Shown here: one piece after another, positions 9,308 to 53,085 of the stretch
How positions within the stretch are numbered: position 1 is the first letter of the stretch
How the letters are laid out: every line of letters starts with the position of its first letter
From: Planobispora longispora
Lineage (GTDB): Bacteria; Actinomycetota; Actinomycetes; Streptosporangiales; Streptosporangiaceae
NCBI RefSeq assembly: GCF_016863135.1
Contig: NZ_BOOH01000054.1
Span: 1-64,000, forward strand
Length of the DNA: 64,000 bases
Reading direction: 5' to 3'
Notes under the pieces: generated by a model
Database searches by the model: none
Told to the model about the DNA's origin: nothing
Seen by the model: only the letters and a program-made list of their open reading frames with translations
Position numbers and translations under genes: made by a program

Positions 9308-9319
9308 ATGATGCATCAT
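9308..9319. promoter_or_regulatory. Perfect 12-bp palindrome, predicted MarR operator
   Basis: ATGATGCATCAT is a perfect palindrome 56 bp upstream of the pirin start. The same 12-mer recurs at 53074-53085. Conserved flanking bases (G-Y-ATCT on the marR side) extend the match. Confidence 0.8.
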
Positions 9320-9365
9320 GTATCTGCCTCAACCTCCACGGTGCGTCGTTCATTCCGAAATATTA

Positions 9366-9377
9366 ATGATGTGTCAT
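9366..9377. promoter_or_regulatory. Second MarR operator, near-palindrome
   Basis: ATGATGTGTCAT lies 23 bp upstream of the marR start, and its centre is 58 bp from the centre of the first site. The preceding CGAAATA and following GCA are also present at the 53-kb locus, where the site reads ATGACGTGTCAT on the minus strand. The position, close to the expected -10 region of marR, suggests autorepression. Confidence 0.75.
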
Positions 9378-9400
9378 GCACTTTTGGGTAGGGTGGAGGC

Positions 9401-9868
9401 ATGACCACCCCTCGCTGGCTCGACGACGACCAGCAGCGCGCCTGGCGGGCCTACCTGCGCATGCAGGGACGGCTGAGCGCCGCGCTGAACCGCCAGCTGC
9501 AGACGGCCTCGGGCCTCTCCCTGGCAGACTACGACGTGCTGGTCCACCTCACCGACGCGCCCGAGGGCCGGCTGCGCCCCTACGAGCTGCAACGCGCGCT
9601 CGACTGGGAGCAGAGCCGCCTCTCGCACCACCTGAGCCGGATGCAGCGCCGCGGCCTGGTCGAGCGCCAAGAGTGCGCCGACGACGGCCGCGGCGCCTTC
9701 GTCTCGCTCACCGCGACCGGCCGGGAGGCGATCACTGCCGCCGCCCCCGGCCACGTCGAGACCGTCCGAAGCCTGTTCTTCGACATCCTCGACCCCGGCC
9801 AGGTCGACGCGCTGCGGCGGCTGTCCACCCAGGTCCTGGCCCGGCTCGACGCCGCCGACGGCGAATGA
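9401..9868 (+). CDS. MarR family transcriptional regulator
   Basis: This 155-residue winged-helix regulator starts after GGAGG. The fold is visible as an N-terminal dimerisation helix (WRAYLRMQGRLSAALNRQLQ), then the winged helix at about 57-105 (LRPYELQRALDWEQSRLSHHLSRMQRRGLV, wing with DDGRGAFVSLT). The C-terminal dimer helices follow. Many MarR proteins sense phenolics, quinones or oxidants. No Cys except Cys90 is seen; it lies in the wing (RQECADDGRG) and could be a redox switch, which is inference. It diverges from pirin, and the paired palindromes in between are probably its operators. The same operator pair precedes the CE1758/CE1759 operon 44 kb away. Confidence 0.92.
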   Translation: MTTPRWLDDDQQRAWRAYLRMQGRLSAALNRQLQTASGLSLADYDVLVHLTDAPEGRLRPYELQRALDWEQSRLSHHLSRMQRRGLVERQECADDGRGAFVSLTATGREAITAAAPGHVETVRSLFFDILDPGQVDALRRLSTQVLARLDAADGE

Positions 9869-9872
9869 GACG

Positions 9873-10664
9873 TCAGCCGGCCGCGGATCCGCCGAGCGGG
9901 GCCCGGGCCGGCGCGGGCCTCCGGGGCCGCCAGGTGACCAGCAGCGCCAGGGCGAGCAGGAGCTCGGCGATGTCGCCGCCGTAGTACATCAGCTCGGCGC
10001 CGCCCCGGCGTTGCGCGGCCGGGACGTCCAGGGAGACCAGGACCCCGGCGTACATCAGCTGCGACAGCGCGGCGTGGCCGGCGACGGCCACCCCGAGCAC
10101 GACCAGGCGGGCCGGGACCGACGGCCGGTGCGGGGCCGGGTCCGGACCGGCGATCGCCCAGGCGAACAGGTAGCCGGAGAGCAGGAAGTGCGCGTGCACC
10201 AAGTGGTGGATCCACGGGGTGGCGGCGGCGAGGCCGTACAGGGGAGTGCAGTACAGCGCGGCCAGCCCGCCCAGGGTGAGCAGCAGGGCGGTGACCGGGT
10301 GGGCGAGCAGGCGGGCCGTACGGCTGCGCAGCAGGCGGCCGAGACGCCGGCCCCGGCGCGGCGGGAGCGCGCCGAGCACCAGAGTGAGCGGCGCGGCCAG
10401 CACCAGGGCGAGCGGCGCCAGCATGCCGATCAGCAGATGCTGCAGCATGTGCCCGCGGAAGTCGCCCTCGCCGAAGGGCAGCGCGTTCCCCAGGGCCAGG
10501 GCGAGCAGGGCGCAGCCGGTCAGGAAGGCCGCCTCGCGCCGGCGACTCCACGGTCGCCCGGCGGCGCGGCGCCGGGCGGCGGTGAGCAGGTACCCGGCGG
10601 CCGGCAGGGCGAGGAGGAGCGCCGGCAGCGCGTCCGGCCCGGCGTGCGCGTGCGGAGAGGTCAT
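9873..10664 (-). CDS. CtaG-like cytochrome c oxidase assembly protein
   Basis: This is a polytopic membrane protein of 263 residues with about seven hydrophobic helices. Family landmarks are GHMLQHLLIGMLAPLALVLAAPLTLVL, PWIHHLVHAHFLLSGYLFAW and the C-terminal AELMYYGGDIAELLLALALLV. The conserved His residues (HMLQH, HHLVHAH) fit the caa3-type CtaG family, which assists copper delivery to cytochrome oxidase; copper binding here is inferred. It overlaps the upstream DUF2243 gene by four bases (ATGA), so the two are one operon. No oxidase subunits are nearby. Confidence 0.88.
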   Translation of the reverse strand: MTSPHAHAGPDALPALLLALPAAGYLLTAARRRAAGRPWSRRREAAFLTGCALLALALGNALPFGEGDFRGHMLQHLLIGMLAPLALVLAAPLTLVLGALPPRRGRRLGRLLRSRTARLLAHPVTALLLTLGGLAALYCTPLYGLAAATPWIHHLVHAHFLLSGYLFAWAIAGPDPAPHRPSVPARLVVLGVAVAGHAALSQLMYAGVLVSLDVPAAQRRGGAELMYYGGDIAELLLALALLVTWRPRRPAPARAPLGGSAAG

Positions 10665-11206
10665 GACGGTCGGCGCGCCGCCGTGTCAGGCTCGGCCGGC
10701 TCGGCCGGCTCGGCGGTCACGGGGCGGGCGCCGCGCTGCAGCAGCCAGCCCCCGGCCACCAGCAGCGCGCCCAGCGCCAGGAAGCCCAGGTCCCACCAGA
10801 GCTGGCCGGGGCCGGTGCGCACGTGGTGGATGCCCAGCAGGTGATGGTCGACGACGCCTTCGACCAGGTTGAACAGCCCCCAGCCGACCAGCACCCAGCC
10901 CCACAGCGCCCGGGAGGTCCACAGGCGGCCGCGGGCGCGGGTGACCCGGGAGTACAGCAGCGCCAGCCCGGTCAGCACCGCCAGCCAGGTGAAGGTGTGG
11001 AACAGCCCGTCCCACAGGGTGTTGATCCGCAGGCCGTGCACGGTGGTGGCCGGATAGTGGGCCACCCCGATGTTGTCGGTGTCGGTGCTGGTCAGCATGT
11101 GATGCCACTGCAGTATCTGGTGGAGCAGGATGCCGTCGAGGAACCCGCCGAGGCCGGCTCCCAGGACGATGCCGGGCAGCGTGACGGTCGGGCGTGCGGT
11201 GGCCAT
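10661..11206 (-). CDS. DUF2243 membrane protein
   Basis: The 181-residue protein has four helices and the characteristic start LPGIVLGAGLGGFLDGILLHQILQWHHMLT. Further histidines are in FHTFTW, VDHHLLGIHHVR and near the helix ends, a pattern suggesting metal or heme coordination, though the family has no proven function. GGGAGG precedes ATG 11206. It is the first gene of the operon with ctaG. The C-terminal tail carries an EPAEPAEP repeat. Confidence 0.85.
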   Translation of the reverse strand: MATARPTVTLPGIVLGAGLGGFLDGILLHQILQWHHMLTSTDTDNIGVAHYPATTVHGLRINTLWDGLFHTFTWLAVLTGLALLYSRVTRARGRLWTSRALWGWVLVGWGLFNLVEGVVDHHLLGIHHVRTGPGQLWWDLGFLALGALLVAGGWLLQRGARPVTAEPAEPAEPDTAARRPS

Positions 11207-11257
11207 GGAGCCTCCCGGTGCGAACGCTGGTATCCCTGTCGCCTACCCGGGAGAGCC

Positions 11258-11312
11258 CGATCAATCGCCCGCCGTACGACCGGCTCGATCAATCGTCCGC
11301 CGTACGGCCGGC
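11258..11312. repeat. Two direct repeats of 27 bp upstream of the DUF2243-ctaG operon
   Basis: CGATCAATCGCCCGCCGTAC (then GACCGGC) at 11258-11284 is repeated at 11286-11312 with two substitutions, a 28-bp period. Each copy contains CGAT-CAATCG, a small dyad. They lie 52-106 bp upstream of the operon start and could be tandem activator sites. Confidence 0.55.
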
Positions 11313-11378
11313 GGCGGTCGTCCTGCCGGTCCGGAAGCCGGGGACCGGCCGTCGTCCCGGGCGTCCCGGCCCCGGAGG

Positions 11379-12782
11379 TCAGTTCCCGGAGCCGGCGATG
11401 GCCAGGCCGGCGGCGGCGGCGCCGGCGTAGGCGTCGTCGATGTGCACCGCGCGCCGTCCGGCGCGGGTCAGCAGGCCGGCGGCGGCCGCGGCCCGGTAGC
11501 CGGAGCCGCAGTGCACCCACACGGTTCCGCCGGGTATCTCGGCCAGGCGGGCGGGCAGCTCGGGCAGCGGGATGTGCGTCGCGCCCTCGATGTGCCCGGC
11601 CCGCCACTCGCCGCTCATGCGCACGTCCAGCACGATGTCGGGGGCGGGCAGATGGCGTGGGATGCGGCCGGCGCGGGCGGCGGCCAGGTCGGCGAAGGTG
11701 GCCGTGGCCAGCGTGGTCAGGCGGGTCTGCTCGCCGCCGGCCCAGTCGTGGGGGGTGCCGGTCGCGGTCGCGGCCGGGCGGTCGATGCCGATGCGGGCCA
11801 GCTCGCGCTGGGCGGCGGCGATCTGCTCGGGGTCGTGGCCGAGCAGGGTGATGGGCGCGCCCCAGGGGGCCAGCCAGGCCAGCCAGGTGGCCATCGGCCC
11901 GTCCAGGCCGAAGCTGACGGTGCCGGTCAGGTGGCGGGCGGCGAAGGCCTTGCGGGAGCGCAGGTCCACCACCCACTCGCCGGCCGCGATGCGCTCCCGC
12001 AACTGCTCGGCGTCGGCCGGCTGCGCCGGGGTCAGGTCGATCAGTCCGGCCCCGGCGCTGTTGCGCGCGCCCATGTGGGCGTAGTAGGCCGGATAGGCGT
12101 CCAGCCCGGCCAGGGTCCGGGTGACGAAGGCGTCGGCTTCCAGCCGCAGCACGGGGTTGGCCTGCTTCTCGCGGCCGATGGTGGAGGCCGCGGCGTCGGA
12201 CTGGGTGGCCGAGCAGAAGCTGCCGAAGCCGTGGGTGGGCCAGATCTGGGCGCCGTCGGGAAGGAGGTCGGCCAGGCGGCGGGCCGAGGCGTGCTGGCGG
12301 TGGGCCAGGGTGCGGGCGTGCTGCTCGCCGAGCAGGTCGGTGCGGCCGGTGGTGCCGAACAGCAGCGAGCCGCCGGTGAACACCCCTTGCGGGCCGCCGG
12401 GGCCGGACAGGACGTAGGACAGGTGGTGGAAGGTGTGGCCCGGGGTGGCCACCACCGCGATCCGCATGCTCTCCGAGACGGCGATCTCGTCGCCGCCGGC
12501 CACCGCCAGCCGCTCGAAGTCCACCGCGTCGGCGCCGGCCACCAGGTAGGCCGCGCCGGTGACCCTGGCCAGGGCCAGGCCGCCGGAGACGTAGTCGTTG
12601 TGCAGGTGGGTCTCGGCCACGTGGGTGACGCGCACCCCGAGCCGGCCGGCCAGGGCCAGGATCCGGTCGATGTCGCGCTGCGGATCGACCGCCAGCGCCA
12701 CCCGCCCGTCGTGGGCCAGGTAGCTGCGGTCGCCCAGGGAGGAGGTCTCCACCACCTCGACGTGGATCGTCGTCATCGTCAT
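11379..12782 (-). CDS. MBL-fold metalloprotein fused to two rhodanese domains
   Basis: The 467-residue protein begins with a metallo-beta-lactamase domain (about 1-255). Its metal motif is THLHNDYVSGG (His59, His61, Asp63), followed by TPGHTFHHLSYV and later WPTHGFGSFC. Rhodanese domain 1 (about 275-370) lacks a catalytic Cys, its loop reading LLGHDPEQ. Rhodanese domain 2 (about 385-467) has the active-site loop VHCGSGYR. The layout is that of persulfide dioxygenase/sulfurtransferase fusions (ETHE1- or CstB-like), which oxidise persulfides and detoxify sulfide; the exact reaction is inferred. Start 12782 gives MTMTTIHVEVVET; the second ATG (12776) is possible and both have weak Shine-Dalgarno sites. 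The gene stands alone. Confidence 0.87.
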   Translation of the reverse strand: MTMTTIHVEVVETSSLGDRSYLAHDGRVALAVDPQRDIDRILALAGRLGVRVTHVAETHLHNDYVSGGLALARVTGAAYLVAGADAVDFERLAVAGGDEIAVSESMRIAVVATPGHTFHHLSYVLSGPGGPQGVFTGGSLLFGTTGRTDLLGEQHARTLAHRQHASARRLADLLPDGAQIWPTHGFGSFCSATQSDAAASTIGREKQANPVLRLEADAFVTRTLAGLDAYPAYYAHMGARNSAGAGLIDLTPAQPADAEQLRERIAAGEWVVDLRSRKAFAARHLTGTVSFGLDGPMATWLAWLAPWGAPITLLGHDPEQIAAAQRELARIGIDRPAATATGTPHDWAGGEQTRLTTLATATFADLAAARAGRIPRHLPAPDIVLDVRMSGEWRAGHIEGATHIPLPELPARLAEIPGGTVWVHCGSGYRAAAAAGLLTRAGRRAVHIDDAYAGAAAAGLAIAGSGN

Positions 12783-12942
12783 TGCTGCTTTCGCTCGTCG
12801 GCCGGTCGCCGGATTGCTCCACTCCGCGTATGCCCCCGGAGCTGCGCGCGAGACAGGTTGACGTCTTTCCGTCCGGGCGAAGACGGAGATCGCCGGGACA
12901 AATCCGGAAGGCATCATGAGATGACCTCGGAGGGCGGCCGCG

Positions 12943-13602
12943 TCATTCCGGGCGGATGAGGCGGCTTTCGTAGGCGAAGATCACGGCCTGTATCCGGTCG
13001 CGGAGTTCGAGCTTTTGTAGGATCCGTCCCAGATGGGACTTCACGGTCGCCTCCGCGAGGTACAGGGCGGACGCGATCTCGGTGTTGGACAGGCCACGGC
13101 CCACCTGGACGAGCACCTCGCGCTCACGGGCGCTGAGCCGGCTCAGCCGCTCGTCGCGGTCGGAGCCGCCGCCGGGGATGTACGGGCGGAAGTCCTCCAG
13201 CAGGCGGCGGGTGATCCGCGGGGAGAGCACCGCGTCGCCCGCGGCCACGTTGCGTATCGCGGTGAGCAGTTCCTCGGGCCTGGCGTTTTTCAGCAGGAAG
13301 CCCGAGGCTCCGGCGTGGAGCCCGGCGAAGGCGTATTCGTCCAGGTCGAAGGTGGTGAGGATCAGCACTCTGCTCTGCGGGGAGACCCGGATGAGCTGCC
13401 GGGTCGCCTCGATCCCGTCGGTCCCGGGCATCCGGACGTCCATGAGGACGACATCGGGGCGCAGCTCCCGGGCGAGGCGTACGGCCTGGGCGCCGTCCGC
13501 GGCTTCGCCGACCGGCGCCATGTCGGGCTGGGCCTCCAGAACCGTGCCGAAGGCCATCCGGAGCAGCGCTTCGTCGTCGGCGATCAGGATGCGGATCGTC
13601 AT
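12943..13602 (-). CDS. NarL/LuxR-type response regulator
   Basis: The 219-residue protein has a receiver domain with acidic pocket ADDE, phospho-acceptor Asp55 (VVLMDVRMPG), Thr in ILTTFD and Lys in FLLKNAR. A LuxR-type helix-turn-helix follows (LSAREREVLVQVGRGLSNTEIASALYLAEATVKSHLGRILQKL). It overlaps the kinase gene by four bases, the standard arrangement in which the kinase activates the regulator. The targets are unknown; the divergent hydrolase gene across the 360-bp intergenic region is a candidate. Confidence 0.92.
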   Translation of the reverse strand: MTIRILIADDEALLRMAFGTVLEAQPDMAPVGEAADGAQAVRLARELRPDVVLMDVRMPGTDGIEATRQLIRVSPQSRVLILTTFDLDEYAFAGLHAGASGFLLKNARPEELLTAIRNVAAGDAVLSPRITRRLLEDFRPYIPGGGSDRDERLSRLSAREREVLVQVGRGLSNTEIASALYLAEATVKSHLGRILQKLELRDRIQAVIFAYESRLIRPE

Positions 13603-14888
13603 GCGGACGCCGCTCCGCCGCTGCCGAGGAAGAGCCGGGTGTGGACTCCCCAGCCGCCGCCCGGAAGCGGTCCGGCCCGCAACGTCCCCCCGTAGGCGGC
13701 CGAGCGCTCGCGCATGCCGGGGATGCCGTGACCGGACGGTGTGACGCCGGGAAGCGGCGGGCACGGGCCGCTGTCGGTGACGTCCACGGTGACGGTCTCA
13801 GCCGAGCACTGGATCCGGACCTTCGCGTGTGTGCCGGCGGGTGTGTGCTTGAGGGTGTTGGTCAGGGCTTCCTGCACCAGGCGGTAGACGGTCAGCTGCG
13901 CGGTGGCGGGCACGTGGGTGTGGCCGCCCTCGACCTCGACGCGGGTCGGCAGCCCGGCGGCGCTCATCTGGTCGGCGAGGGTCTCCAGCTGTGCGATGCC
14001 GGGCAACGGGTGGCGCTCCGCGTCCGGTTCGTCGGTCCGCAGGATGCCCAGCGAACGCCGCATGTCGGTCAGGGCCTGCCGGCCCGTCTCGGAGATCTGG
14101 AGCATCGCGGCGGTGGCCTTGTCGGGCGACCGGTGCTGCGCGTAGACGGCGGCGTCGGTGAGCGCGACCATGACGGACAGGTTGTGGGTGACGATGTCGT
14201 GCATCTCCCGGGCGATACGCGTCCTCTCCTCGGCGACGGCCAGCCGCGCCTGCTGGTCCTGCTGCTGCTCCAGGCGCGCGGCCCGTTCCTCCAGGGCCGC
14301 GAGGTAGGCGCGCGTGGTCCGCGCGTTCACCCCCAGGACGGCGGCGGCGACGACCATCGCGGTCACCGCGACGAAGGGGGTCAGGAACGCGCCTTCCGTC
14401 GTCCAGCGCAGGCAGGCCAGCAGGGCCCCGCCCTCCACGACGGCAGCGGCGGCGAACGTGCCGCGCCGGTCCGAGTTCGCGGCCACCGTGTAGAGAGCCA
14501 CCAGCAAGGCGACGTCCGCCGGCAGCGGGACGTCCATCAGCCACTGGACGAAGGCCGCGGCCGCCACGGCGCCGAACACCGTGAGCGGGGCCCGGCGCCG
14601 CCATATCAGCGGCAGTGCGAGGGCGGCGGTGAGGGCCGCGGCCACCGGAAGCTCTCGCGGCGCGCGCGTGGTCATGATGGTGAGCAGGAGCAGCGCCGGC
14701 ACCAGCGAGTCCCCCACCATGGGAGGCAGCCGGAGGGCCCTGCGCCGGGCGGCTCTCACCACTCTCGCCGCTCGCACGGAGGCCAGGCCGGCGGACCCCG
14801 TCAGCCGTACGGCCGTCCTCGTCCGCCGTACGCGGTCCCGGTAGCGCACCGGATGGGCATCCCCGGGCTCTGCGGCCGCCTCGGTCAT
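13599..14888 (-). CDS. DesK-type sensor histidine kinase
   Basis: The protein has 429 residues from ATG 14888, chosen because AGGGA lies upstream; ATG 14915 is possible. It has several membrane helices at about 55-190 (LVPALLLLTIMT, VAAALTAALALPLIW, VALLVALYTVA, VAVTAMVVAAAVLG), then a coiled linker. The HisKA_3 box follows with the phospho-acceptor His in RIAREMHDIVTHNLSVMVAL. The HATPase domain has QEALTNTLKH (N box) and GHGIPGMRERSAAYGGTL (G box). It belongs to the NarL-type two-component class with a small membrane-embedded sensor, often envelope- or cell-wall-linked. Confidence 0.92.
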   Translation of the reverse strand: MTEAAAEPGDAHPVRYRDRVRRTRTAVRLTGSAGLASVRAARVVRAARRRALRLPPMVGDSLVPALLLLTIMTTRAPRELPVAAALTAALALPLIWRRRAPLTVFGAVAAAAFVQWLMDVPLPADVALLVALYTVAANSDRRGTFAAAAVVEGGALLACLRWTTEGAFLTPFVAVTAMVVAAAVLGVNARTTRAYLAALEERAARLEQQQDQQARLAVAEERTRIAREMHDIVTHNLSVMVALTDAAVYAQHRSPDKATAAMLQISETGRQALTDMRRSLGILRTDEPDAERHPLPGIAQLETLADQMSAAGLPTRVEVEGGHTHVPATAQLTVYRLVQEALTNTLKHTPAGTHAKVRIQCSAETVTVDVTDSGPCPPLPGVTPSGHGIPGMRERSAAYGGTLRAGPLPGGGWGVHTRLFLGSGGAASA

Positions 14889-15249
14889 CACACGTCCCTG
14901 TCGATTCAGCGTCATGGCGGCCCCGGTCGGGGCCGGTGCCGCGTGCGGCCGGAGCCGGGTCGGGTACGAGAAACCCGCACCCCGCGCTCCCCGGCGTGTA
15001 CCGCGGCCCTGTCACGGTAGGCCACCGGCCCGCCGAGCGCATGAGCCCACCGTCTGATCGCGTCGCGCCGAGGTACGACCGCAGGAGGAGGCCCGCTGCC
15101 TTCCGCGGTCGCAAAGCGGCCGCTCACCCGGCGTGCTCGATTGCGACTCCGGTCGCACAGGGGACATGCCTCGGATTGCGACTCCGGTCGCACGCGGTGG
15201 AGCTCCGGGAACGATGCGGCATCGCGCGCCCCGCCCCGAGGATGGCCGG
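14889..15249. other. 360-bp divergent intergenic region
   Basis: This lies between the kinase gene (minus) and the hydrolase (plus). It holds twin palindromes at 15142-15192 and extra GGTCGCA-like half-sites near 15073 and 15107. Short open frames here lack codon bias. The hydrolase frame is open through the palindromes, but I place its start at 15250. Confidence 0.6.
15142..15192. promoter_or_regulatory. Two identical palindromes TGCGAC-TCCG-GTCGCA
   Basis: The 16-bp palindrome sits at 15142-15157 and again at 15177-15192. The repeat extends to GATTGCGACTCCGGTCGCA with a 35-bp period. Two copies upstream of a start codon look like a tandem operator for a dimeric regulator. The protein is unknown; the adjacent NarL-type regulator is one candidate. 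Confidence 0.65.
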
Positions 15250-16764
15250 GTGACCGAGATCATCGCGGGACTGCACCTGTCCCCTCTGGAATTCCTCGTC
15301 CTGCTGGGGGCCGTCGCGCTGGTGGCGGCGCGCTGGTTTCCCCCCGTCGCCCGCCCGCGCGTCACGATCGCGGCGGCGGCGGTTCTCGTGCCGTCCGCGA
15401 TCGCGCTGAGCGCGGTGGGGATCCGCTGGCAGATGCTGCCGGTACTGGCAGGCGCCGCCGTCGCGTCGCCGTTCGCCTTCTCTCCTCTGCTGCGGCGCCG
15501 TGCCGGCCGGCCGGCGTGGCGGGCCCGATGGTGGCTGGCGTTGCCGGGGTCGGCGGCCTGCGTCGGCCTGATCGCCACGGGCCCGGTGGCCGCCTGGGCC
15601 TTCCCCGTGCCCGTGTTCCCCGAGCCGTCGGGCCGTTTCGCGGTCGGCGCCCACGTGGTGCAGTGGACCGACCCCCACCGCCCCGAGAGCTTCACCGCCG
15701 ATCCGCACGACCGGCGCACGGTCGTGGTCCAGCTCTGGTATCCCGCGCGGAAGAGCCCCGCAGGCGCGCGGCGCGCCCAGTACCTCGGACGCGCGGAGCG
15801 CGAGGCGCGCACCGTTTCCGGCGCCCTGGCCCGCGGGGTCGGCCTGCCCGGCTTCCTGGTCGACGGCGTCCCGCGTGCCCGCACCCATTCGGTCTTCGAC
15901 GCCCCGGTGGCCGCTGGGGACGAACGGTTCCCGATCGTGCTGTTCTCTCCCGGGTCGGGCGGAGTGCGCACCCAGAACACGGCCTGGGCGGAGGAGCTGG
16001 CCAGCCACGGCTACGCGGTCGCCGCGCTCGACCACCCGTACGACTCCGCCGCCGTCGTCCTCGCCGACGGCCGGACGATTCACGCCACGATCGCCTCCAC
16101 CGGAGACCGGGACGAGGACGCCGAGCTGGCGGCCGGCTGGACGGCTGTCCGGGCCGCCGACCTCAGCTTCGTCCTCACCCAGCTGGACCGTCTGGGCCGG
16201 GGGGAGATCACCGGCCCGCTGACCGGGCGCCTGGACACCGATCGGGTCGCGGTCACCGGCCACTCCATGGGCGGCGCCGCCGCTCTGCAGGCGGCCCGGC
16301 AGGACCGCCGGGTCGACGCCGCCATCGATCTGGACGGCTACCCCCACGGCCCCGTCTCCCCCTCCCTCCGCCAGCCGACGCTCGCGCTCACCCAGGCCGT
16401 CACCCCCGGAACCGACCCGCGCTACCTACCCCGCCTCACCGAGGTCCTCGAGCTCGGCACCGCGACGAACTACCGGCTCACCATCCCCGGCGCCGCACAC
16501 CTCACCTTCATGGACGGCCCCCTGTACCTGCCGCCTGTGCCCTCGATAGCCGGCTCCCTGGGCCGCGCCGGCAGCCCGCACGTCGTCGCCGCGACCACTC
16601 TCGCCTTCCTGGACGCCACCCTGCGTCACGAGCCCGGTGACCTGGCCGGCGTCCTGTCGGCCTACGGCGACCTCAGCGTCCACCACCCGGACGCCGGCGG
16701 CGCCGTCAAGGAACGACCAGGAAAGACCACTGCCCGTGTACCGGCCGGAGCCGAGGGTAACTGA
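15250..16764 (+). CDS. Membrane-anchored alpha/beta hydrolase (PAF acetylhydrolase/lipase-like)
   Basis: The product is 504 residues from GTG 15250, which has GAGGAT upstream; the frame is open to 15133, but that would place twin operators inside the gene. The first 130 residues contain four hydrophobic helices. The catalytic domain follows, with nucleophile Ser339 in TGHSMGGAAAL, acid candidate Asp362 in IDLDGYPHG, and His417 in PGAAHLTFMD. The oxyanion strand reads FPIVLFSPGSGG. The arrangement resembles platelet-activating-factor acetylhydrolase II-like and chlorophyllase-type enzymes, so a lipid ester substrate is likely. The active domain is probably outside the membrane. The FMN reductase follows after 53 bp. 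Confidence 0.82.
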   Translation: MTEIIAGLHLSPLEFLVLLGAVALVAARWFPPVARPRVTIAAAAVLVPSAIALSAVGIRWQMLPVLAGAAVASPFAFSPLLRRRAGRPAWRARWWLALPGSAACVGLIATGPVAAWAFPVPVFPEPSGRFAVGAHVVQWTDPHRPESFTADPHDRRTVVVQLWYPARKSPAGARRAQYLGRAEREARTVSGALARGVGLPGFLVDGVPRARTHSVFDAPVAAGDERFPIVLFSPGSGGVRTQNTAWAEELASHGYAVAALDHPYDSAAVVLADGRTIHATIASTGDRDEDAELAAGWTAVRAADLSFVLTQLDRLGRGEITGPLTGRLDTDRVAVTGHSMGGAAALQAARQDRRVDAAIDLDGYPHGPVSPSLRQPTLALTQAVTPGTDPRYLPRLTEVLELGTATNYRLTIPGAAHLTFMDGPLYLPPVPSIAGSLGRAGSPHVVAATTLAFLDATLRHEPGDLAGVLSAYGDLSVHHPDAGGAVKERPGKTTARVPAGAEGN

Positions 16765-16817
16765 TGCCGCGAACCCCCGGAACGCGGCAACGCCGGCCTT
16801 CGTAAAAGGAGCAGGGA

Positions 16818-17402
16818 ATGGTCAAGATCGCGATTGTCCTGGGGAGCACCCGGCCCGGCCGCATCGGGCAGGCGGTGGCCCAATGGGTCTACGACTTCGC
16901 CGCCAAGCGCACCGACGCGCAGTTCGAGCTGGTCGACATCGCCGACTACAGCCTGCCGCTGCTGGACGAGCCGGTCCCGCCCTCGATGGGCCAGTACAAC
17001 AACGAGCACACCAAGCGCTGGGCCGCCCGGATCGCCGAGTTCGACGGCTACGTCTTCGTGACCCCGGAGTACAACCACTCCACCTCCGGCGCGCTGAAGA
17101 ACGCCCTGGACTACCTGTACGCCGAGTGGAACAACAAGGCCGCCGGCTTCGTCGGGTACGGCAGCGCCGGGGGCACCCGGGCGGTCGAGCAGCTGCGCCT
17201 GATCATGGCCGAGCTGCAGGTGGCGACCGTGCGCACCCAGGTGGCGCTGTCGCTGTTCACCGACTTCGAGAACTTCTCCGCCTTCCAGCCGGCCGCCCAC
17301 CACGAGCAGCCCCTGACCACGATGCTGGACCAGCTGGCGGCCTGGAGCCAGGCGATGAAGCTCGTGCGCGGGCGCGACCACATGGACATGTACCGCTCCT
17401 AG
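16818..17402 (+). CDS. NADPH-dependent FMN reductase
   Basis: The 194-residue flavodoxin-fold enzyme has the phosphate-binding loop GSTRPGRIGQAV at residues 9-20 and the family motif PEYNHSTSGALKNALDYLY near 82-100. A GYGSAGGTRAVEQLR loop follows. Such enzymes reduce FMN, quinones or azo compounds with NADPH. The start follows AAAAGGAG. Neighbours are a hydrolase upstream and a RibD-type reductase 134 bp downstream; both the FMN reductase and the RibD-like pair relate to flavin chemistry, which may or may not be meaningful. Confidence 0.9.
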   Translation: MVKIAIVLGSTRPGRIGQAVAQWVYDFAAKRTDAQFELVDIADYSLPLLDEPVPPSMGQYNNEHTKRWAARIAEFDGYVFVTPEYNHSTSGALKNALDYLYAEWNNKAAGFVGYGSAGGTRAVEQLRLIMAELQVATVRTQVALSLFTDFENFSAFQPAAHHEQPLTTMLDQLAAWSQAMKLVRGRDHMDMYRS

Positions 17403-17536
17403 CTGCTGTACTGCTCGCGGTCGCGGGCTTCGGGCCGTACGGCGGGCCGCTCGGACGCCGCCGCACGGCCCCGCCGCGCGCCCGGCCGCCGTGCCGACGC
17501 GGCGGCCGGACATCCGCATTCAGGGGGTCATCGCTC

Positions 17537-18690: not shown

Positions 18691-18750
18691 CCGCGCCCGC
18701 TCCGACGCGTCAGCGGTTCCGGCGGGCGTCCGCTCCGGCCGGGAACGGCG

Positions 18751-18787: not shown

Positions 18788-18810
18788 ACGGGTGGAGCGG
18801 CGGGCGCGTC

Positions 18811-44572: not shown

Positions 44573-44632
44573 CCGCGGCGGCGGCTCACCCGGCCCGGCG
44601 CCGGGCATCCGCGAGCGCCTAAGGTGTTCGGC

Positions 44633-45838: not shown

Positions 45839-46458
45839 TCCGGGTGCTGCTGGTGGACGACCAGCAGCTCATCCGGGCGGGACTGCGGATGTTGTGCGAG
45901 TCCCAGCCCGACATCGAGGTCGTCGGCGAGGCCGGCAACGGCCACGACGCGACCCGCCTCGTCGAGCGGCTCAGTCCCGACGTGGTGGTGATGGACCTGC
46001 GCATGCCCGGGGTCGACGGGATCACCGCCACCGGCCGCATCGTCGCCGAACGGCCGAGCGTGCGGGTCGTCGTGCTCACCACGTTCGGCGACGACGACCA
46101 CCTCTACCCCGCGCTGACCGCCGGGGCGTGCGGTTTCCTGCTCAAGGACGCGCCGCCCGTGCAGCTGCTGGACGGCATCCGGCGCGCGGCCGCCGGCGAC
46201 AGTCCCTTCAGCCCGGAGGTGCTCCAGCGGCTCGTGCGCCGGGCGGTGCACGCCCGGACGGTCACTCCGCCGCTGCCCGGCCTCACCGCCCGCGAGCGCG
46301 ACATCCTGGAACTGGTCGCCGAGGGCCTGTCGAACACGGAGATCGCCGAGCGGCTGCACATCGGCGTCACCACCGTGAAGACCCACATCACCAGCTTGAT
46401 GGCCAAGACCGGCAGCCCCAACCGGGTCCGCCTGGCGTTGTGCTGGACGGGCGGCTAG
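45835..46458 (+). CDS. NarL/LuxR-type response regulator
   Basis: The 207-residue protein has a receiver with VDDQ, phospho-acceptor in VVVMDLRMPGVDG, LTTFGDDDH and LLKDAPPV. The LuxR HTH is LTARERDILELVAEGLSNTEIAERLHIGVTTVKTHITSLMAK. GTG 45835 overlaps the kinase stop. It is the third NarL-type system of the window. A strong terminator follows. Confidence 0.92.
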   Translation: MIRVLLVDDQQLIRAGLRMLCESQPDIEVVGEAGNGHDATRLVERLSPDVVVMDLRMPGVDGITATGRIVAERPSVRVVVLTTFGDDDHLYPALTAGACGFLLKDAPPVQLLDGIRRAAAGDSPFSPEVLQRLVRRAVHARTVTPPLPGLTARERDILELVAEGLSNTEIAERLHIGVTTVKTHITSLMAKTGSPNRVRLALCWTGG

Positions 46459-46487
46459 CCGTATCCGGCCGTGACGCCGGTGACGGC

Positions 46488-46526
46488 CCGCCGAGGCGGC
46501 GGGCACGTCGTCCGCCGCCTCGGCGG
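46488..46526 (+). terminator. 15-bp perfect stem after the two-component operon
   Basis: CCGCCGAGGCGGCGG (46488-46502) pairs with CCGCCGCCTCGGCGG (46512-46526) around a 9-base loop, 29 bp after the stop. It separates the operon from the SARP gene. Confidence 0.8.
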
Positions 46527-46561
46527 TCCGGGCGGGCGGGGCGTGCTGCGATAGTGGACGG

Positions 46562-49500
46562 ATGCGCGTCGGCATCCTCGGTCCCCTGGTGCTGGAGACC
46601 GCCGCCGGCCCGGCGCGGGTCGGCGGCGCGCGGCTGCGGGCGTTGCTGACCCGGCTGGTGCTGGACGCCGGGCGTTCCGTCCGCCCGGCGACCCTGGCCG
46701 AGGCGCTGTGGGGCGAGGAGGCGCCGGCCGACCACCTGCACGCGCTGCAGTCGCTGGTGTCCCGGCTACGGCGCGTCCTGGGCGATCCCGGGCTGCTCAC
46801 CTCGGGTCCGGCCGGGTACCGGCTGGCCGTCGAGCCGGACGCGGTCGACGCCGTCAGGTTCGAGCGGCTGGTCCGCGAGGGCCGGCGCTCGCACGCGCAG
46901 TCCCGGCCCGCGGAGGCCGCCGCCGCCTTGCGTGAGGCCCTGAGCCTGTGGCGCGGCCCGGCCCTGGCGGACGTGCGTGAGGCGCCGTTCGCCGCCGCCG
47001 AGGCCGAACGGCTCGAGCGGGCCCGGCTGGCCGCGCTCGAGGACCGGATCGAAGCCGAACTCGCGCTGGGCGCGGACCTCGACCTGGTCGCCGAGCTCGA
47101 GGCGCTGGCCGCCGCCCACCCGTTGCGCGAACGGCTGCACGCCCAGCTGATCCGGGCACTGGCGGGCAGCGGCCGCGGCGCCGAGGCGCTGGCCGCCTAC
47201 CAGCGGATCCGCGGCCTGCTGGCCGACAGTTTCGGCAGCGACCCCGGTCCGCAGCTCCAGCAGGCCCATCTGGCGGTGTTGCGCGGTGAGGCTCCCCGGC
47301 CCCGCCGCCCGCACGGCAACCTGGACGTCCCGCTCACCAGTTTCGTGGGCCGTGACGACGACGTAGACCGCGTGGCCGGACTGCTCGGCCGGGTCCGGCT
47401 GGTCACGCTGGTCGGTCCCGCGGGAGCGGGCAAAACCCGGCTGGCCAGCACCGTCGGGCGGCGGCTCACGCCGTCCGGCGGGGTGTGGTCGGTCCCGCTG
47501 GCCCCGGTCGGCGCGGACGACGTGCCCCGCGTGGTGCTCGATCTGCTGCGGGCGCGCGAGGGGGGCGCGCCGGCACGGCCCGTCGCCCCGGGGGCGGTCC
47601 TGGACCACCTGGTCGAGACGCTCGCGGACGACGACCTGGTGCTGGTGCTGGACAACTGCGAGCACGTGATCGAGGCCGCCGCGGCGCTCGCCGGGGCGCT
47701 GCTCGGCCGGTGCCCGGGGCTGCGGGTGCTGGCCACCAGCCGGGAGCCCCTGCGGATCGACGGTGAGACCCTGCACCCGGTGCTCCCGCTGGAGCTGCCC
47801 GAGCCGGGGGCGACGGCCGAGCGGGCCCGCGCCTGCGCGGCGGTCCGGCTGTTCTGCGACCGCGCCGCCGCGGTGCGGCCGGACTTCACCGCGGACGGCG
47901 GCGCGCTGGCCGCGGCGGTGGAGATCTGCCGCCGCCTGGACGGCCTGCCGCTGGCGATCGAGCTGGCCGCGGCACGGGTGCGCGCCCTGCCGGTCGAGGT
48001 GGTCGCGGCCCGGCTGGACGACCGGTTCCGGCTGCTCACCGGGGGCAGCCGCACCGCGCTGCCGCGGCACCGGACCCTGGACGCCGCGGTGGCCTGGAGC
48101 TGGGGCCTGCTCGAGGCCGACGAGCGCCTGCTGCTGGAACGGCTGTCGGTCGTGCCCGGCGCCTTCACCGAGGACGCGGCGGAGGCGATCGGCCGGTCGG
48201 GAGACGCCTCCGCAGACGTCTCGGGTGATGTCTCAGGCGATGTGCGGGAGCTGCTGACGGCGCTGGTCGACAAATCCCTGCTGCACCCGGCCGAGACCGC
48301 CGACCCGGCCGAGCCGCGCTACCGCATGCTGGAGACCATCCGGGAGTACGGCCTCGGGCGGCTGGCCCGGCGCGCGGAGGTCGGCCTCGCGCGCGGGCGG
48401 CACGCCGGGTTCCTCCTCCGGCTGGCCGAGACCGCCGACCCGCACCTGCGCACCTCCGACCAGCTGCGCTGGCTGGCCCGCCTGTCCGCGGAACGGGACA
48501 ACCTGTCGGCCGCGATCCGCTGGGCGGTGGAATCCGGCGACGCCGCTCTGGCCGTCCGCTTCGGCGTGGCGCTGTGCTGGTTCTGGTTCCTGCGGGATCA
48601 CCCACCGGAGTCGCTGGACCTGCTCGGCCGGGTGCTGCGGGCCCGCGGCCCGGCCGAGCCGCGGGCACGCGCGCTGGTCGCCGCCGCGCACGCGCTCGCC
48701 ACCACCGAGGCGGTCAGCCGCCCGGACGAGGCCGGAGCGGCCTTCGAGCGGATCAGGGAGGCGCTGGAGCGCATCGGCCCCGGCGCCCACGGCGTCCATC
48801 CGATCGCGGAGATGGCCGGGCTGGCGCTCGCCATCGGCTCGGGAGGCGATCGGCTCCCGCCGGGCCCGCTCGACTCCCCGGACGGGCAGGCGGATCCCTG
48901 GAGCCGGTCGCTGGCGCTGCTGGCCCGGGGCGTGCTGGCGATGAACACCGGCCGCGCCGCCGAGGCGGTGCGGCTGCTGTCGCGTGCGCTGACCGGTTTC
49001 GAGGAACTCGGCGAGCGGTGGGGCCTGGCGATCACGCTGAGCACCCTGAGCTCGGCGTTGCAGCGGGCCGGCGAGCCGGCCGGCGCGCCCGCGCTGGCCG
49101 AGCGGGCCACCGGCTGCTTCCGGGAACTCGGCATGCCCGAGCACACGATGGAGAACGAGGTGGCGGCCGCGCTGCACCGGGCCCGGGCCGGCGACGCGGA
49201 CGGCGGGCGGCGGCGGCTGACGGACCTGCTCGGCCAGGCCGAGCGGAGCGGGTCGGCGGAGTCGCAGGCCCAGGTGCGCCTGGGCCTGGCCCGGCTGGAG
49301 TGGCGGGCCGGGCGGCCCGGGCCGGCCCGCGAACACGCCCGGGCCGGCCTGGCCGAGGGGCCGCCCGGCCGGTCGACCCCGCACCTGACCGCACTGCTGC
49401 TGGGCGTGCTCGCCCAGGCGGACGCCGCGGAGGGGCTCCCGGAGGAGGCGGTGCGCCGGCTCGACCATCCGGCGGTGCACCTGACGCTGACCTGGAACAC

Positions 49501-49789
49501 GCCGGTCGCGGCCGGGACCGCGGTCGCGGCCGCCGCGATCGAGCTGTGCCGCGACCGGCCGGAGCGGGCGGGACGGCTCCTGGGGGCCGCCGCCGTGCTG
49601 CGGGGCCGGGACGACCCCGACGACGCCGACGTGCGGGCGATCGCGCAGCGGGTCGCGGCGGCTCTGGGCATCGCCGGGTTCGCGGCCGCGCACGCCGCGG
49701 GCGCGGAGATGTCGCGGGCCGAGGCCGAGGAGCTGGTGTCCGCGGTCGTCACCGCGCCCGCGGCGGACCGCGCCGGTCAGCCGGCGTGA
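46562..49789 (+). CDS. AfsR/SARP family regulator (BTAD + NB-ARC-like ATPase + TPR)
   Basis: This is a 1075-residue STAND regulator. The N-terminal winged helix (about 1-90, GGARLRALLTRLVLDAGRSV) with the BTAD domain (about 95-245, AAALREALSLWRGPALADVREAPFAAAEAERLERARLAALEDRI) is the SARP module. The ATPase (about 255-560) has Walker A GPAGAGKTRL with Lys291 and Walker B LVLVLDNCEHVIEAAAAL. TPR-like helical repeats fill the C-terminal half. SARPs activate antibiotic gene clusters, so this may control the NRPS genes about 8 kb downstream; that link is inference. The 3' end overlaps the convergent serine hydrolase gene by 13 bp. Confidence 0.92.
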   Translation: MRVGILGPLVLETAAGPARVGGARLRALLTRLVLDAGRSVRPATLAEALWGEEAPADHLHALQSLVSRLRRVLGDPGLLTSGPAGYRLAVEPDAVDAVRFERLVREGRRSHAQSRPAEAAAALREALSLWRGPALADVREAPFAAAEAERLERARLAALEDRIEAELALGADLDLVAELEALAAAHPLRERLHAQLIRALAGSGRGAEALAAYQRIRGLLADSFGSDPGPQLQQAHLAVLRGEAPRPRRPHGNLDVPLTSFVGRDDDVDRVAGLLGRVRLVTLVGPAGAGKTRLASTVGRRLTPSGGVWSVPLAPVGADDVPRVVLDLLRAREGGAPARPVAPGAVLDHLVETLADDDLVLVLDNCEHVIEAAAALAGALLGRCPGLRVLATSREPLRIDGETLHPVLPLELPEPGATAERARACAAVRLFCDRAAAVRPDFTADGGALAAAVEICRRLDGLPLAIELAAARVRALPVEVVAARLDDRFRLLTGGSRTALPRHRTLDAAVAWSWGLLEADERLLLERLSVVPGAFTEDAAEAIGRSGDASADVSGDVSGDVRELLTALVDKSLLHPAETADPAEPRYRMLETIREYGLGRLARRAEVGLARGRHAGFLLRLAETADPHLRTSDQLRWLARLSAERDNLSAAIRWAVESGDAALAVRFGVALCWFWFLRDHPPESLDLLGRVLRARGPAEPRARALVAAAHALATTEAVSRPDEAGAAFERIREALERIGPGAHGVHPIAEMAGLALAIGSGGDRLPPGPLDSPDGQADPWSRSLALLARGVLAMNTGRAAEAVRLLSRALTGFEELGERWGLAITLSTLSSALQRAGEPAGAPALAERATGCFRELGMPEHTMENEVAAALHRARAGDADGGRRRLTDLLGQAERSGSAESQAQVRLGLARLEWRAGRPGPAREHARAGLAEGPPGRSTPHLTALLLGVLAQADAAEGLPEEAVRRLDHPAVHLTLTWNTPVAAGTAVAAAAIELCRDRPERAGRLLGAAAVLRGRDDPDDADVRAIAQRVAAALGIAGFAAAHAAGAEMSRAEAEELVSAVVTAPAADRAGQPA

Positions 49790-51063
49790 GCCGCGGCCGG
49801 GACGGGTTTGCCGAACATCGCGCAGATCACGGCGCTCTGGAGCGCGCCGGCGGCCTTGGCGATCTTCGGGTCGGCGTCGAATTCCGCCCAGAGCTCCGTG
49901 GAGACCAGGACGGTCGCCGTGCGGCCGCCGGCGCGGTCGGTGACGTTGGTGGTGAGATAGCCGGGGATGCCGCCGTCGTGACCCCAGAACGTGCCGCACG
50001 GGGTGGCGCCGGTCTGGATGCCCAGCCCGTAGCCGGGCCCGTCCGGCTGCCGCGGGTCCACCGGCACGGTGGTGCGCATCTGCGCCAGCTGGGCGGCGGG
50101 CAGCAGTTCGCCGGACATCAGCGCGGTGGAGAAGCGGGCCCAGTCCTGCGCGGTGGACACCACCGCCCCGGCCGCCCCGCCCCACCCGGGATCGTTGCCG
50201 GAGACGTCCACGTGGCCGTGGCGGCGCTGCCCGGCGAAGTGCCTGAACCCGGCCGGCACCTGCGGCGGCATGTGGGCGGCGTCCCGTTCGTAGCCGTGGG
50301 CGTGGGGGCCGCGCCAGGTGGAGTCCGTGGCGTAGTAGGTGCGCTTGAGGCCGAGCGGCCGGGCGATCCGGTCGCGGACCAGCTCGGCCAGGCTCGCGCC
50401 GGTGACCCGTTCCAGGACGGCGCCGAGCGCGGCGTAGTCGGTGTTGCTGTACGACCATTCCGTGCCCGGCGCGAACAGCGGATCGTGCTTGACGCCGAGG
50501 GCGAGCAGCTGCGCCGAGGTCCAGCGCCGCCGGTCCGTGCCGAGGATCGACGGCCGGAGAGCGGGGTCCTCGGTGTAGTCGAACAGGCCGCTGGTGTGGT
50601 TCAGCAGCATGCGCAGTGTGATCGCCTCGCCGTCGGGCACCTTGCCGGGCAGCCACTTGTCCACCGGGTCGGTCAGGGCGAGCCTGCCCTCGGCGGCCAG
50701 CTGCAGCACGAGCGTGGCCACCATGGTCTTGGTGTTGGACCCCATCCGGAACTCGTCACCCGCCGTGAGCCGGTGATCCCGTCTGCTCCAGGGGGCCTGC
50801 TCGGCGATCTCGATCGGACGGCCGCGGCCGTCGTCCACTCGCACGATCACGCCGGGCGCCCCGGCGTCGACCAGCTTGCGGGCCAGCTGCCGCAGCTGGG
50901 CGCGCTGTGGCTCGGCGTCGCTGCGGGCCGTGGACGGCGCGGCCGCGGCGGCGGCCGGGAACACCGCGGCCACGGCCAGGCTCACGGCCAGCGCCGCGGC
51001 CGTGAGCGTGCGCGGACGGCGCGGACGCATCGTGCGGTCCGACGGGAGAAGGCGTTGGGACAT
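49777..51063 (-). CDS. Secreted serine hydrolase (DD-carboxypeptidase/beta-lactamase family)
   Basis: The product has 428 residues. The signal peptide has basic RPRRPRT, then a long hydrophobic stretch ending near AAAAAPSTA. The catalytic motifs are SxxK (MGSNTKTMVATL), YxN (WSYSNTDYAALG) and HxG-like (WGHDGGIPGY). The active-site residues support a penicillin-binding-type esterase or peptidase acting outside the cell. ATG 51063 has GGAGGAA eight bases upstream; a longer frame to 51105 is not used. It is convergent with the SARP. Confidence 0.9.
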   Translation of the reverse strand: MSQRLLPSDRTMRPRRPRTLTAAALAVSLAVAAVFPAAAAAAPSTARSDAEPQRAQLRQLARKLVDAGAPGVIVRVDDGRGRPIEIAEQAPWSRRDHRLTAGDEFRMGSNTKTMVATLVLQLAAEGRLALTDPVDKWLPGKVPDGEAITLRMLLNHTSGLFDYTEDPALRPSILGTDRRRWTSAQLLALGVKHDPLFAPGTEWSYSNTDYAALGAVLERVTGASLAELVRDRIARPLGLKRTYYATDSTWRGPHAHGYERDAAHMPPQVPAGFRHFAGQRRHGHVDVSGNDPGWGGAAGAVVSTAQDWARFSTALMSGELLPAAQLAQMRTTVPVDPRQPDGPGYGLGIQTGATPCGTFWGHDGGIPGYLTTNVTDRAGGRTATVLVSTELWAEFDADPKIAKAAGALQSAVICAMFGKPVPAAAHAG

Positions 51064-51200
51064 CGACCGGTTCCTCCGGGTGATAGGTGAGGCGGACGAC
51101 CTCACCCTTCACCTCGCCGCTCACAGGGCGCACACAGCGCGCTGTCAGCGGCCTGGCCGGCGTCCTGATCCGGTGCCGGCGTCCGGCCGGCGCACGGCGG

Positions 51201-51818
51201 TCACAGGCCGGCCAGGAGCGTCTCGAAGGGGGTGGGGTCGGCGAACGGGTCGGCGACGGCGGCCCGCGGGCGCTGCGCGACCAGAGCGGCCAGTTCGCCG
51301 GCGGCGCGCCGGATGCGGTCGCTCAGCGCCGCGCTGGTCGCGTCGCCGCCGGCCCAGTCCTCCGACGCGGCGAAGACGGCGGTGGGTGCGACGACGGCCC
51401 GCAGGTAGGCGAACAGCGGCCGCATCGCGTGCTCCAGGGCCAGGGAGTGCCGCGCGGTCCCGGCGGTCGCGCCCATCAGCACGGGCTTGCCGGTCAGCGC
51501 CTCCTTGCCGAGCACGTCGAAGAACGTTTTGAACAGGCCGCTGTAGGAGGCGGAGAAGATCGGCGTCACGGCGATCAGGGCGTCGGCGCCGGCCACCGTG
51601 TCGACGGCCGTGCGCAGCGCGGTGTTCGGGAACCCGGTGACGAGGTTGTCGGCCAGGTCGCGGGCGTGCCCGCGCAGCTCGACGACCTCGACGCCGGCCT
51701 CCAGGCCCAGCGCGGCCAGCGCCTCGGCGCTGGCCTGGGCGAGCCGGTCGGCCAGCAACCGGGTGGAGGAGGGGACCGACAGGCCGGCGCTGACGACGGC
51801 CAGGGTGCGGGTGCTCAT
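51201..51818 (-). CDS. CE1759-type FMN reductase
   Basis: This 205-residue flavodoxin-fold reductase has the FMN phosphate loop SAGLSVPSSTRLLADRL near the N-terminus. The PIFSASYSGLFKTFFDVL segment and GATAGTARHSLALEHAMRPLFAYLRA follow, the hallmark of the CE1759 family of FMN reductases. It supplies reduced flavin to its partner. It overlaps the CE1758-like monooxygenase gene by four bases (ATGA), giving a two-gene operon under the operators at 53 kb. Confidence 0.88.
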   Translation of the reverse strand: MSTRTLAVVSAGLSVPSSTRLLADRLAQASAEALAALGLEAGVEVVELRGHARDLADNLVTGFPNTALRTAVDTVAGADALIAVTPIFSASYSGLFKTFFDVLGKEALTGKPVLMGATAGTARHSLALEHAMRPLFAYLRAVVAPTAVFAASEDWAGGDATSAALSDRIRRAAGELAALVAQRPRAAVADPFADPTPFETLLAGL

Positions 51819-52963
51819 CGGGACTGGACCTCCTGACGGGACTGGCCGGTCACGTCGTCGGCGGGCGCGTGCACGGTGGCGTCCTTGGCGCCGCCCGCCG
51901 CGGCGACCCGGGCGGCGTGCGTGGGCGCGTCGGGGACGTGGGCGGGCTTGAGCGCCGCGAACTCCTTGCGCAGCACCGGAACGACCTCCTCGCCGAGGAT
52001 GTCGAGCTGCTCCAGCACGGTCTTCAGCGGCAGGCCGGCGTGGTCGATGAGGAACAGCTGCCGCTGGTAGTCGCCCACGTAGTCGCGGAAGGTCAGGGTG
52101 CGGTCGATGACCTGCTGCGGGCTGCCGACGGTCAGCGGCGTCTCACGCGTGAACTCCTCCAGCGAGGGGCCGTGGCCGTACACCGGGGCGTTGTCGAAGT
52201 AGGGGCGGAACTCGCGCACCGCGTCCTGGCTGTTCTTGCGCATGAACACCTGCCCGCCGAGCCCGACGATCGCCTGGTCGGCCGAGCCGTGGCCGTAGTG
52301 CTCGAAGCGCTGCCGGTACAGGCCGACCATCCGCTGGGTGTGCTCCTTCGGCCAGAAGATGTGGTTGTGGAAGAAGCCGTCGCCGTAGTAGGCGGCCTGC
52401 TCGGCGATCTCGGGGCTGCGGATCGAGCCGTGCCAGACGAACGGCGCGACGCCGTCCAGCGGCCGCGGGGTGGAGGTGAAGCCCTGCAGCGGCGTGCGGA
52501 AGCGGCCCTGCCAGTCGACCACGTCCTCGCGCCACAGCTTGTGCAGCAGGGCGTAGTTCTCCACCGCGAGCGCGATGCCGTTGCGGATGTCCTGGCCGAA
52601 CCAGGGGTAGACCGGGCCGGTGTTGCCGCGGCCCAGCATGAGGTCGACGCGGCCGCCGGCGAGGTGCTGCAGCATCGCGTAGTCTTCGGCGATCTTCACG
52701 GGGTCGTTGGTGGTGATCAGCGTGGTCGCGGTGGACAGCTGCAGCCGCCGCGTCTGCGCGGCGATGTAGCCCAGTGTGGTGGTGGGGGAGGAGGAGAAGA
52801 ACGGCGGATTGTGGTGCTCACCCAGGGCGAACACGTCCAGGCCGACCTCCTCGGCCTTCTTGGCGATCGTGACGACCGCCTGGATCCGCTCGGCCTCGCT
52901 GGGCACCCGCCCGGTCGTGGGGTCGGCGGTGATGTCGCTGACCGAAAAGACACCGAACTGCAT
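51815..52963 (-). CDS. CE1758-type FMN-dependent luciferase-like monooxygenase
   Basis: The product has 382 residues in the bacterial luciferase-like TIM-barrel fold. The N-terminus reads MQFGVFSVSDITADPTTGRV, and the flavin environment is LDVFALGEHHNPPFFSSSP. Other conserved parts are LGRGNTGPVYPWFGQDIRNG and FHNHIFWPKEHTQRMVGLYRQR. It belongs to the CE1758 group, which is usually encoded with its own FMN reductase. It probably oxidises small aromatic, sulfur or electrophilic compounds; this is not established. ATG 52963 has GGGGAG upstream, while ATG 52975 is less likely. It is controlled by the paired palindromes upstream. Confidence 0.88.
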   Translation of the reverse strand: MQFGVFSVSDITADPTTGRVPSEAERIQAVVTIAKKAEEVGLDVFALGEHHNPPFFSSSPTTTLGYIAAQTRRLQLSTATTLITTNDPVKIAEDYAMLQHLAGGRVDLMLGRGNTGPVYPWFGQDIRNGIALAVENYALLHKLWREDVVDWQGRFRTPLQGFTSTPRPLDGVAPFVWHGSIRSPEIAEQAAYYGDGFFHNHIFWPKEHTQRMVGLYRQRFEHYGHGSADQAIVGLGGQVFMRKNSQDAVREFRPYFDNAPVYGHGPSLEEFTRETPLTVGSPQQVIDRTLTFRDYVGDYQRQLFLIDHAGLPLKTVLEQLDILGEEVVPVLRKEFAALKPAHVPDAPTHAARVAAAGGAKDATVHAPADDVTGQSRQEVQSR

Positions 52964-53015
52964 GATGCTCCCCATTTGCGTATGTGCCCTGTCATGTTCT
53001 TCCCCGTCAACATGC

Positions 53016-53027
53016 ATGACACGTCAT
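53016..53027. promoter_or_regulatory. MarR-type operator at the CE1758/CE1759 promoter
   Basis: The plus strand reads ATGACACGTCAT, which is ATGACGTGTCAT in the direction of the CE1758-like gene. It differs by one base from the marR-proximal site at 9366-9377. The flanks CGAAATA and GCATG also match. It lies 52 bp before the CE1758-like start. Confidence 0.75.
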
Positions 53028-53073
53028 TTATTTCGTGGACGGGGTGCCCCGCCCGCCCGGACCGCCTAGATGC

Positions 53074-53085
53074 ATGATGCATCAT
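53074..53085. promoter_or_regulatory. Second MarR-type operator, perfect palindrome
   Basis: ATGATGCATCAT is identical to the site at 9308-9319. Its centre lies 58 bp from the first operator, exactly as at the pirin-marR locus, and the orientation toward the downstream gene also agrees. A TATATATT element next to it could be the -10 of the plus-strand VOC gene. Confidence 0.8.

Follow-up and report, generated by a model that had tools for sequence, protein, structure and literature searches.

Genes and palindromic sites at the two loci

The window, that is, the whole stretch of 64,000 nucleotides of Planobispora longispora analysed here, carries paired palindromes at two loci. At the first, a gene for a pirin, with its cupin domain confirmed (Pfam PF02678, E 5.7e-32, plus Pirin_C_2), is divergent from a marR gene encoding a MarR winged-helix domain (Pfam MarR_2 PF12802, 8.5e-14, and PF01047, 3.6e-06). 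At the second, the gene of a luciferase-like monooxygenase (LLM) of the CE1758 family is adjacent to that of a CE1759-family FMN reductase, both proteins scoring far above the NCBIfam cut-offs, and a small VOC/glyoxalase-like gene is transcribed away from them. The features are the following:

8487-9251, minus strand: pirin gene, divergent from marR, with its start placed by homology at 9251
9308-9319, strand not assigned: candidate distal operator ATGATGCATCAT on the pirin side (sequence reading, motif search)
9338-9349, strand not assigned: putative decayed middle operator ACGGTGCGTCGT (alignment; intact ATGA....TCAT in relatives)
9366-9377, plus strand: candidate proximal operator ATGATGTGTCAT on the marR side (sequence reading, motif search)
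9389-9394, plus strand: putative -10 element TAGGGT, separated by 6 nt from the ATG of marR, its function proposed from sequence
9401-9868, plus strand: marR, encoding an AbsC/SCO3205-type MarR with a WEQSRLSHH recognition helix (Pfam, PDB homology)
51201-51818, minus strand: CE1759-family FMN reductase (NCBIfam TIGR04037, 275.6 bits, cut-off 175.9)
51815-52963, minus strand: CE1758-family FMN-dependent LLM (NCBIfam TIGR04036, 727.8 bits, cut-off 479.1)
52984-52995, minus strand: putative decayed proximal LLM operator ATGACAGGGCAC, a two-mismatch remnant where relatives have ATGA....TCAT
53016-53027, minus strand: candidate conserved LLM operator ATGACGTGTCAT, found at -64 to -68 in six genomes
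53074-53085, strand not assigned: extra perfect palindrome ATGATGCATCAT, missing from all five other closely related LLM promoters that were read
53206-53493, plus strand: small VOC/glyoxalase-like gene, divergent from the LLM gene

The VOC-like gene had no match in the Pfam search, and its matches to Fos-family NCBIfam models were weak and far under the cut-off; an equivalent divergent start was seen by eye in three related loci (L090, L091, and L092). Direct reading of the letters bore out the four palindromes that the earlier note had placed at 9308, 9366, 53016, and 53074, and also the start-to-start distance of 58 bp at both the marR and the LLM locus. The flanks GYATCT and CGAAATA, likewise described as shared, fared differently from each other. 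GYATCT is common to both loci, and since NYA follows 90 of 120 sites of the MarR group, part of it belongs to a wider motif. CGAAATA is out of register by 2 bp, standing 10 bp before the site at the first locus and 8 bp before it at the second; GAAATAA is kept in all six aligned monooxygenase promoters, and CGAAATA in only one of seven aligned marR promoters, the window's own. A shared CGAAATA flank was rejected on account of this register shift and of its lack of conservation at marR.

Rarity of the paired sites

The 8.84 Mb, 120-contig genome has four copies of the strict motif ATGAYGYRTCAT, every one of them inside the window; allowing one mismatch adds 20 places, no two near each other (control, 2 forward and 2 reverse). 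A whole-genome search for ATGANNNNTCAT occurring twice with a gap of 30–70 bp, which the earlier note had called for, returned only these two loci (control, 0). Within the window, the perfect palindrome with up to two mismatches has 4 matches against 0.43 expected from shuffles, one of which, at 10437, lies outside both pairs. Sixteen of the 20 one-mismatch places were read (L005–L020); nine appear intergenic by a crude gene call based on third-position G+C, and no common function was seen among the 16. This genome may thus hold weak additional sites.

A short palindrome could recur by chance, and singletons of the strict motif do exist, at 15 places in 24 genomes of the family in which no MarR of the WEQ type (named after the first three residues of the recognition helix) was seen, either because the best MarR match was weaker than E 1e-38 or because its triad proved to be of a different type (G012, G028, and G031). 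All 15 are single, with no pairs. Because the strict motif is found four times in the window only, the ATGANNNNTCAT pairs at two loci only, and the sites of the family genomes singly, the pairs are not a product of chance. That explanation is further refuted by the sites being conserved at orthologous loci across the genus and in two genomes from outside it, and in our judgement has a negligible probability. The strict sites of other genomes with a WEQ protein (15 regions, L234–L248) give a mixed picture, some lying within genes; in two Streptosporangium genomes (L244 and L247), such a site is near an NAD(P)-binding gene, NmrA-like by eye, which is a candidate for an extra target.

The MarR protein and its solved relatives

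The nearest solved relatives of the MarR over the whole domain (phmmer) are SCO3205 of Streptomyces coelicolor (PDB 3zpl, E 1.8e-28) and AbsC (PDB 3zmd, E 8.7e-27), and among named relatives the closest proteins are those of Planobispora takensis (86%) and P. siamensis (85%). The homology to SCO3205 runs without gaps over residues 3–143 and puts Gln71, Ser72, and His76 at the positions of its Arg72, Ser73, and His77, which are its only major-groove base contacts according to PMC3737563. The base-contacting Ser and His are therefore retained, whereas Arg72 is replaced by Gln, as in all 59 WEQ proteins, which are so defined; this would make the group a variant in specificity. The same paper has SCO3205 binding two operators in its divergent intergenic region, one near each gene, a layout like that of the window, and places O5533, another operator tested with SCO3205, in front of a gene encoding a homologue of polyisoprenoid-binding proteins. 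The two systems differ in consensus (TTnAAnnnTCAA for SCO3205 vs. ATGAYRYRTCAT for the MarR of the window) and in the divergent gene, which is dioxygenase-like in the former and a pirin gene in the latter.

AbsC, which is implicated in zinc-dependent antibiotic production in S. coelicolor (cited in PMC3737563), has a pocket with a Trp/His pair that binds salicylate, as that paper describes. The counterparts of this pair in the window's MarR are Trp15 and His118, and among the 59 WEQ proteins W15, S72, R73, H76, R80, and R97 are present in all and H118 in 58. Because the pocket pair is conserved, we infer the class of ligand to be an aromatic acid, a phenol, or a quinone-like compound. The sole cysteine, Cys92, is kept in 56 of the 59 WEQ proteins and in 123 of 137 other proteins; being group-wide, it neither supports nor excludes redox sensing and is not special to this regulon, so a cysteine switch peculiar to the pirin/LLM regulon was rejected.

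Covariation of the recognition helix and the outer operator base

Sites were collected upstream of marR homologues with TGA....TCA fixed and the outer bases free, leaving out those less than 15 bases from the start. From 213 loci intended (30 + 103 + 80), 196 were kept, the 17 dropped being loci with no match or duplicates, defined by an identical protein together with identical final 100 bases upstream; five WEQ loci with a stop codon within the matched stretch (L096, L097, L098, L100, and L101) were retained unchanged. The association test used the 151 of these 196 loci that offered a site, a readable triad, and a protein of 110 residues or more; operators were called A-type when A was the outer base in more than three quarters of half-sites.

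The outer base is A in 249 of 258 half-sites of the WEQ proteins (59 loci). Proteins with WDR in the triad go with CTGA or TTGA, that is, with C or T as the outer base, in 41 of 42 half-sites, SSR and QSR proteins with TTGA in 68 of 68, and SSQ proteins with TTGA in 19 of 20; WEK proteins are mixed. By locus (n = 151), A-type operators accompany 53 of 58 WEQ proteins vs. none of 93 non-WEQ proteins. The operators are mixed at five WEQ loci (L126, L129, L132, L267, and L271), and the TGA....TCA search found no site at a further one, L265. A determinant role for Gln alone was discarded, given that SSQ and ASQ proteins also pair with TTGA. In a tree built without the triad columns, WEQ changes 6 times and the operator type 7 times; on starred branches there are only 2 independent WEQ contrasts (means: 0.9 in the same direction, 0 in the opposite, and 1.1 with no difference), so that the phylogenetic test is without power.

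The marR–pirin intergenic region

One to three fully A-type ATGA....TCAT palindromes are present in the promoter of marR itself in 56 of the 59 WEQ loci (three in 22, two in 20, one in 14, and none in 3). In the other genus genomes (G001–G003) and in G018 of another genus, the marR promoter has three such sites at about -93, -63, and -35, in steps of about 30 and 28 bp, and the 9308 palindrome has its match there, at -92/-93 from the marR start. The middle site, decayed in the window, is intact in L022–L025, L093, and L094. Past the last operator, TANNNT followed by ATG or GTG 4–9 nt later is found in 51 of the 56 WEQ loci that have an A-type site, which would fit a marR promoter that is likely leaderless and autorepressed.

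Where WEQ-type marR has a divergent open reading frame (53 loci), the partner, judged by eye from N-termini, is a pirin in 34 and a YceI in 14; Pfam backed these calls in two pirin and two YceI examples, the pirin ones being distant. The pirin linkage reaches as far as loci of Mycolicibacterium (L298) and Parafrankia (L271), and in L025 and L093 the called pirin start is more than 300 bp from marR. The YceI–marR pairs of actinomycetes share the WEQ MarR and the operators with the window and differ in that YceI replaces pirin; an ATGA-type LLM gene is found in one of the eight such genomes included in the search (G083). Our literature search found no work on a MarR with YceI and pirin in actinobacteria. 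In L025 (G018), the divergent strand beside marR resembles by eye a short YceI fragment, with pirin beyond it, possibly a trace of the replacement of YceI by pirin. Elsewhere in the window, positions 16818–17402 hold an NADPH-dependent FMN reductase gene (PF03358) that by eye resembles the genes lying divergent from marR of the WDR and WSK types in L035 and L042.

The monooxygenase promoter and its probable regulator

In all four genus genomes examined, the strict motif has no occurrences other than those preceding marR and the CE1758-type monooxygenase gene, the identity of the latter in G001 and G003 resting on 64 and 60 residues since contig ends cut the gene. In two genomes of other genera, G018 and G083, the motif is at -68 and -64 of monooxygenases 94% and 93% identical. 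Upstream of 38 other LLM genes (up to 88% identity, up to 200 bp upstream) ATGA....TCAT was found in none. A full LLM match is present in 13 of 33 WEQ-type genomes, and of these 13 only G000, G018, and G083 have an ATGA-type promoter, to which G001–G003 add contig-cut copies, for six genomes in all; the second target is therefore limited to one sublineage. G002 and G083 carry both types of monooxygenase paralogue, and the ATGA-type copy looks like a duplicated monooxygenase pair that switched regulator. Both G002 paralogues (L079 and L249) end at residue 163, at contig ends, which suggests an identical repeat collapsed in assembly. We found no publication on a MarR repressor of a luciferase-like monooxygenase with an FMN reductase.

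The genome encodes eight MarR homologues at E ≤ 1e-20. A regulator other than the 9401–9868 protein may act at these sites, and one of the seven further matches could be the reader of the LLM-locus sites; TTGA....TCAA elements, presumably sites of other regulators, do occur in 11 of the 38 other LLM loci. Against such a paralogue, the WEQ triad is present in the 9401 protein only, the other seven having WSK, SSQ, QSR, VSK, WEK, SSR, and LSR, and ATGA....TCAT was found in the own promoter of none of the seven. We regard control of the LLM locus by another paralogue as very improbable.

We lean, with some reserve, towards a wider scheme in which the triad before S-R-x-S-H would act as a specificity code for the outer operator base, a change of triad would have given this MarR a private operator, and the duplicated LLM–reductase pair would then have joined the pirin regulon through gain of ATGA-type operators in one sublineage.

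Around the monooxygenase region, there are also NRPS genes at 54105–58715 and 61802–64000 and a gene with a Bac_luciferase domain at 58720–60444, the stretch 54105–64000 being possibly a biosynthetic cluster, and a large BTAD/AAA regulator of the SARP type at 46562–49789.

Origin of the equal 58-bp spacing

The equal spacing had been taken in the earlier note as a fixed looped or paired binding geometry, and this part of its proposal did not hold. At marR, 58 bp separates the two outer members of what in the relatives is an array of three operators with steps of about 30 and 28 bp; in the window the middle member has decayed. Among 22 three-site WEQ arrays the outer span is 55–61 bp, and in the 25 arrays spanning 54–61 bp the middle site is kept in 22, the three lacking it spanning 54, 55, and 58 bp. 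At the LLM locus, four relatives (L090, L091, L092, and L196) have the site at -66 with a second one 32 bp closer to the gene, and in L052 the second site, ACGACATGTCAT, has one mismatch and is 34 bp closer; the outer palindrome of the 53074 type was found in none of these five close copies and is present in this genome alone. A 58-bp geometry as a general mechanism was thus rejected, given that the spacing varies, the middle site is usually kept, and the LLM relatives differ.

It could still be argued that the 58-bp pair is a functional unit in which two MarR dimers touch or loop, with selection having set the same geometry twice. The spacing is the same at both loci, 58 bp is the commonest outer span of the three-site marR arrays (8 of 22), and by our own estimate, given the intergenic length, a new site would fall at exactly 58 bp by chance about once in 170. 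However, 58 bp is about 5.5 helical turns and would put the sites on opposite faces, which is unfavourable for direct contact, and both the range of WEQ outer spans with the middle site so often retained and the 32–34 bp spacing of the five other LLM copies without an outer site speak against it. We consider such a unit unlikely. Because each array lost one site and one of them gained another, the equal spacing is most simply, and probably, a coincidence of how each array evolved.

A probable MarR regulon linking pirin with a monooxygenase–reductase pair

The earlier proposal, of one MarR-controlled redox or electrophile regulon, is supported in part, in its linkage of pirin, marR, and CE1758/CE1759, given the restriction of strict sites to the two loci throughout the genus genomes and an operator that tracks the recognition helix. 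The sites, their restriction to the two loci, their conservation, and their covariation with the helix are direct results of the analysis; the binding, the repression, and the ligand are what we infer. We hold with considerable confidence that the four palindromes would serve as operators of the 9401–9868 MarR for the control of itself, of pirin, and of the CE1758/CE1759 pair, with the 58-bp spacing not being a shared mechanism.

In the proposed mechanism, a MarR dimer would bind ATGAYRYRTCAT, the WEQSRLSHH helix reading the sequence, and would use the 9366 site to repress the promoter of its own gene and the 9308 site, placed where a pirin promoter is expected, to repress that of the divergent pirin gene. 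Through 53016 it would repress the CE1758/CE1759 monooxygenase–reductase pair, and 53074 may serve as a further control point for the VOC gene or for the monooxygenase operon. The MarR would probably be released when its Trp15/His118 pocket takes up an aromatic acid, a phenol, or a quinone-like compound. The 58 bp at marR would reflect two back-to-back promoters that have lost the operator between them, and the 58 bp at the LLM locus a site that only this lineage was found to have. Because pirin, a flavin monooxygenase, and an FMN reductase come together here, a response to aromatic compounds or quinones is suggested, and this MarR is most likely the autorepressor of a small aromatic/quinone-stress regulon.

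In summary, this would be a small, conserved, and directly testable regulon for a type of MarR with no described function found in our searches, and it would tie pirin to a flavin monooxygenase pair. The covariation of helix and operator over 151 loci would amount to a specificity code for a large group of actinomycete MarR proteins, and the monooxygenase pair would provide a worked example in which a duplicated enzyme gene came under a different regulator through a change of operator. It would also illustrate that a striking equality of spacing can be a by-product of the decay and gain of sites in operator arrays.
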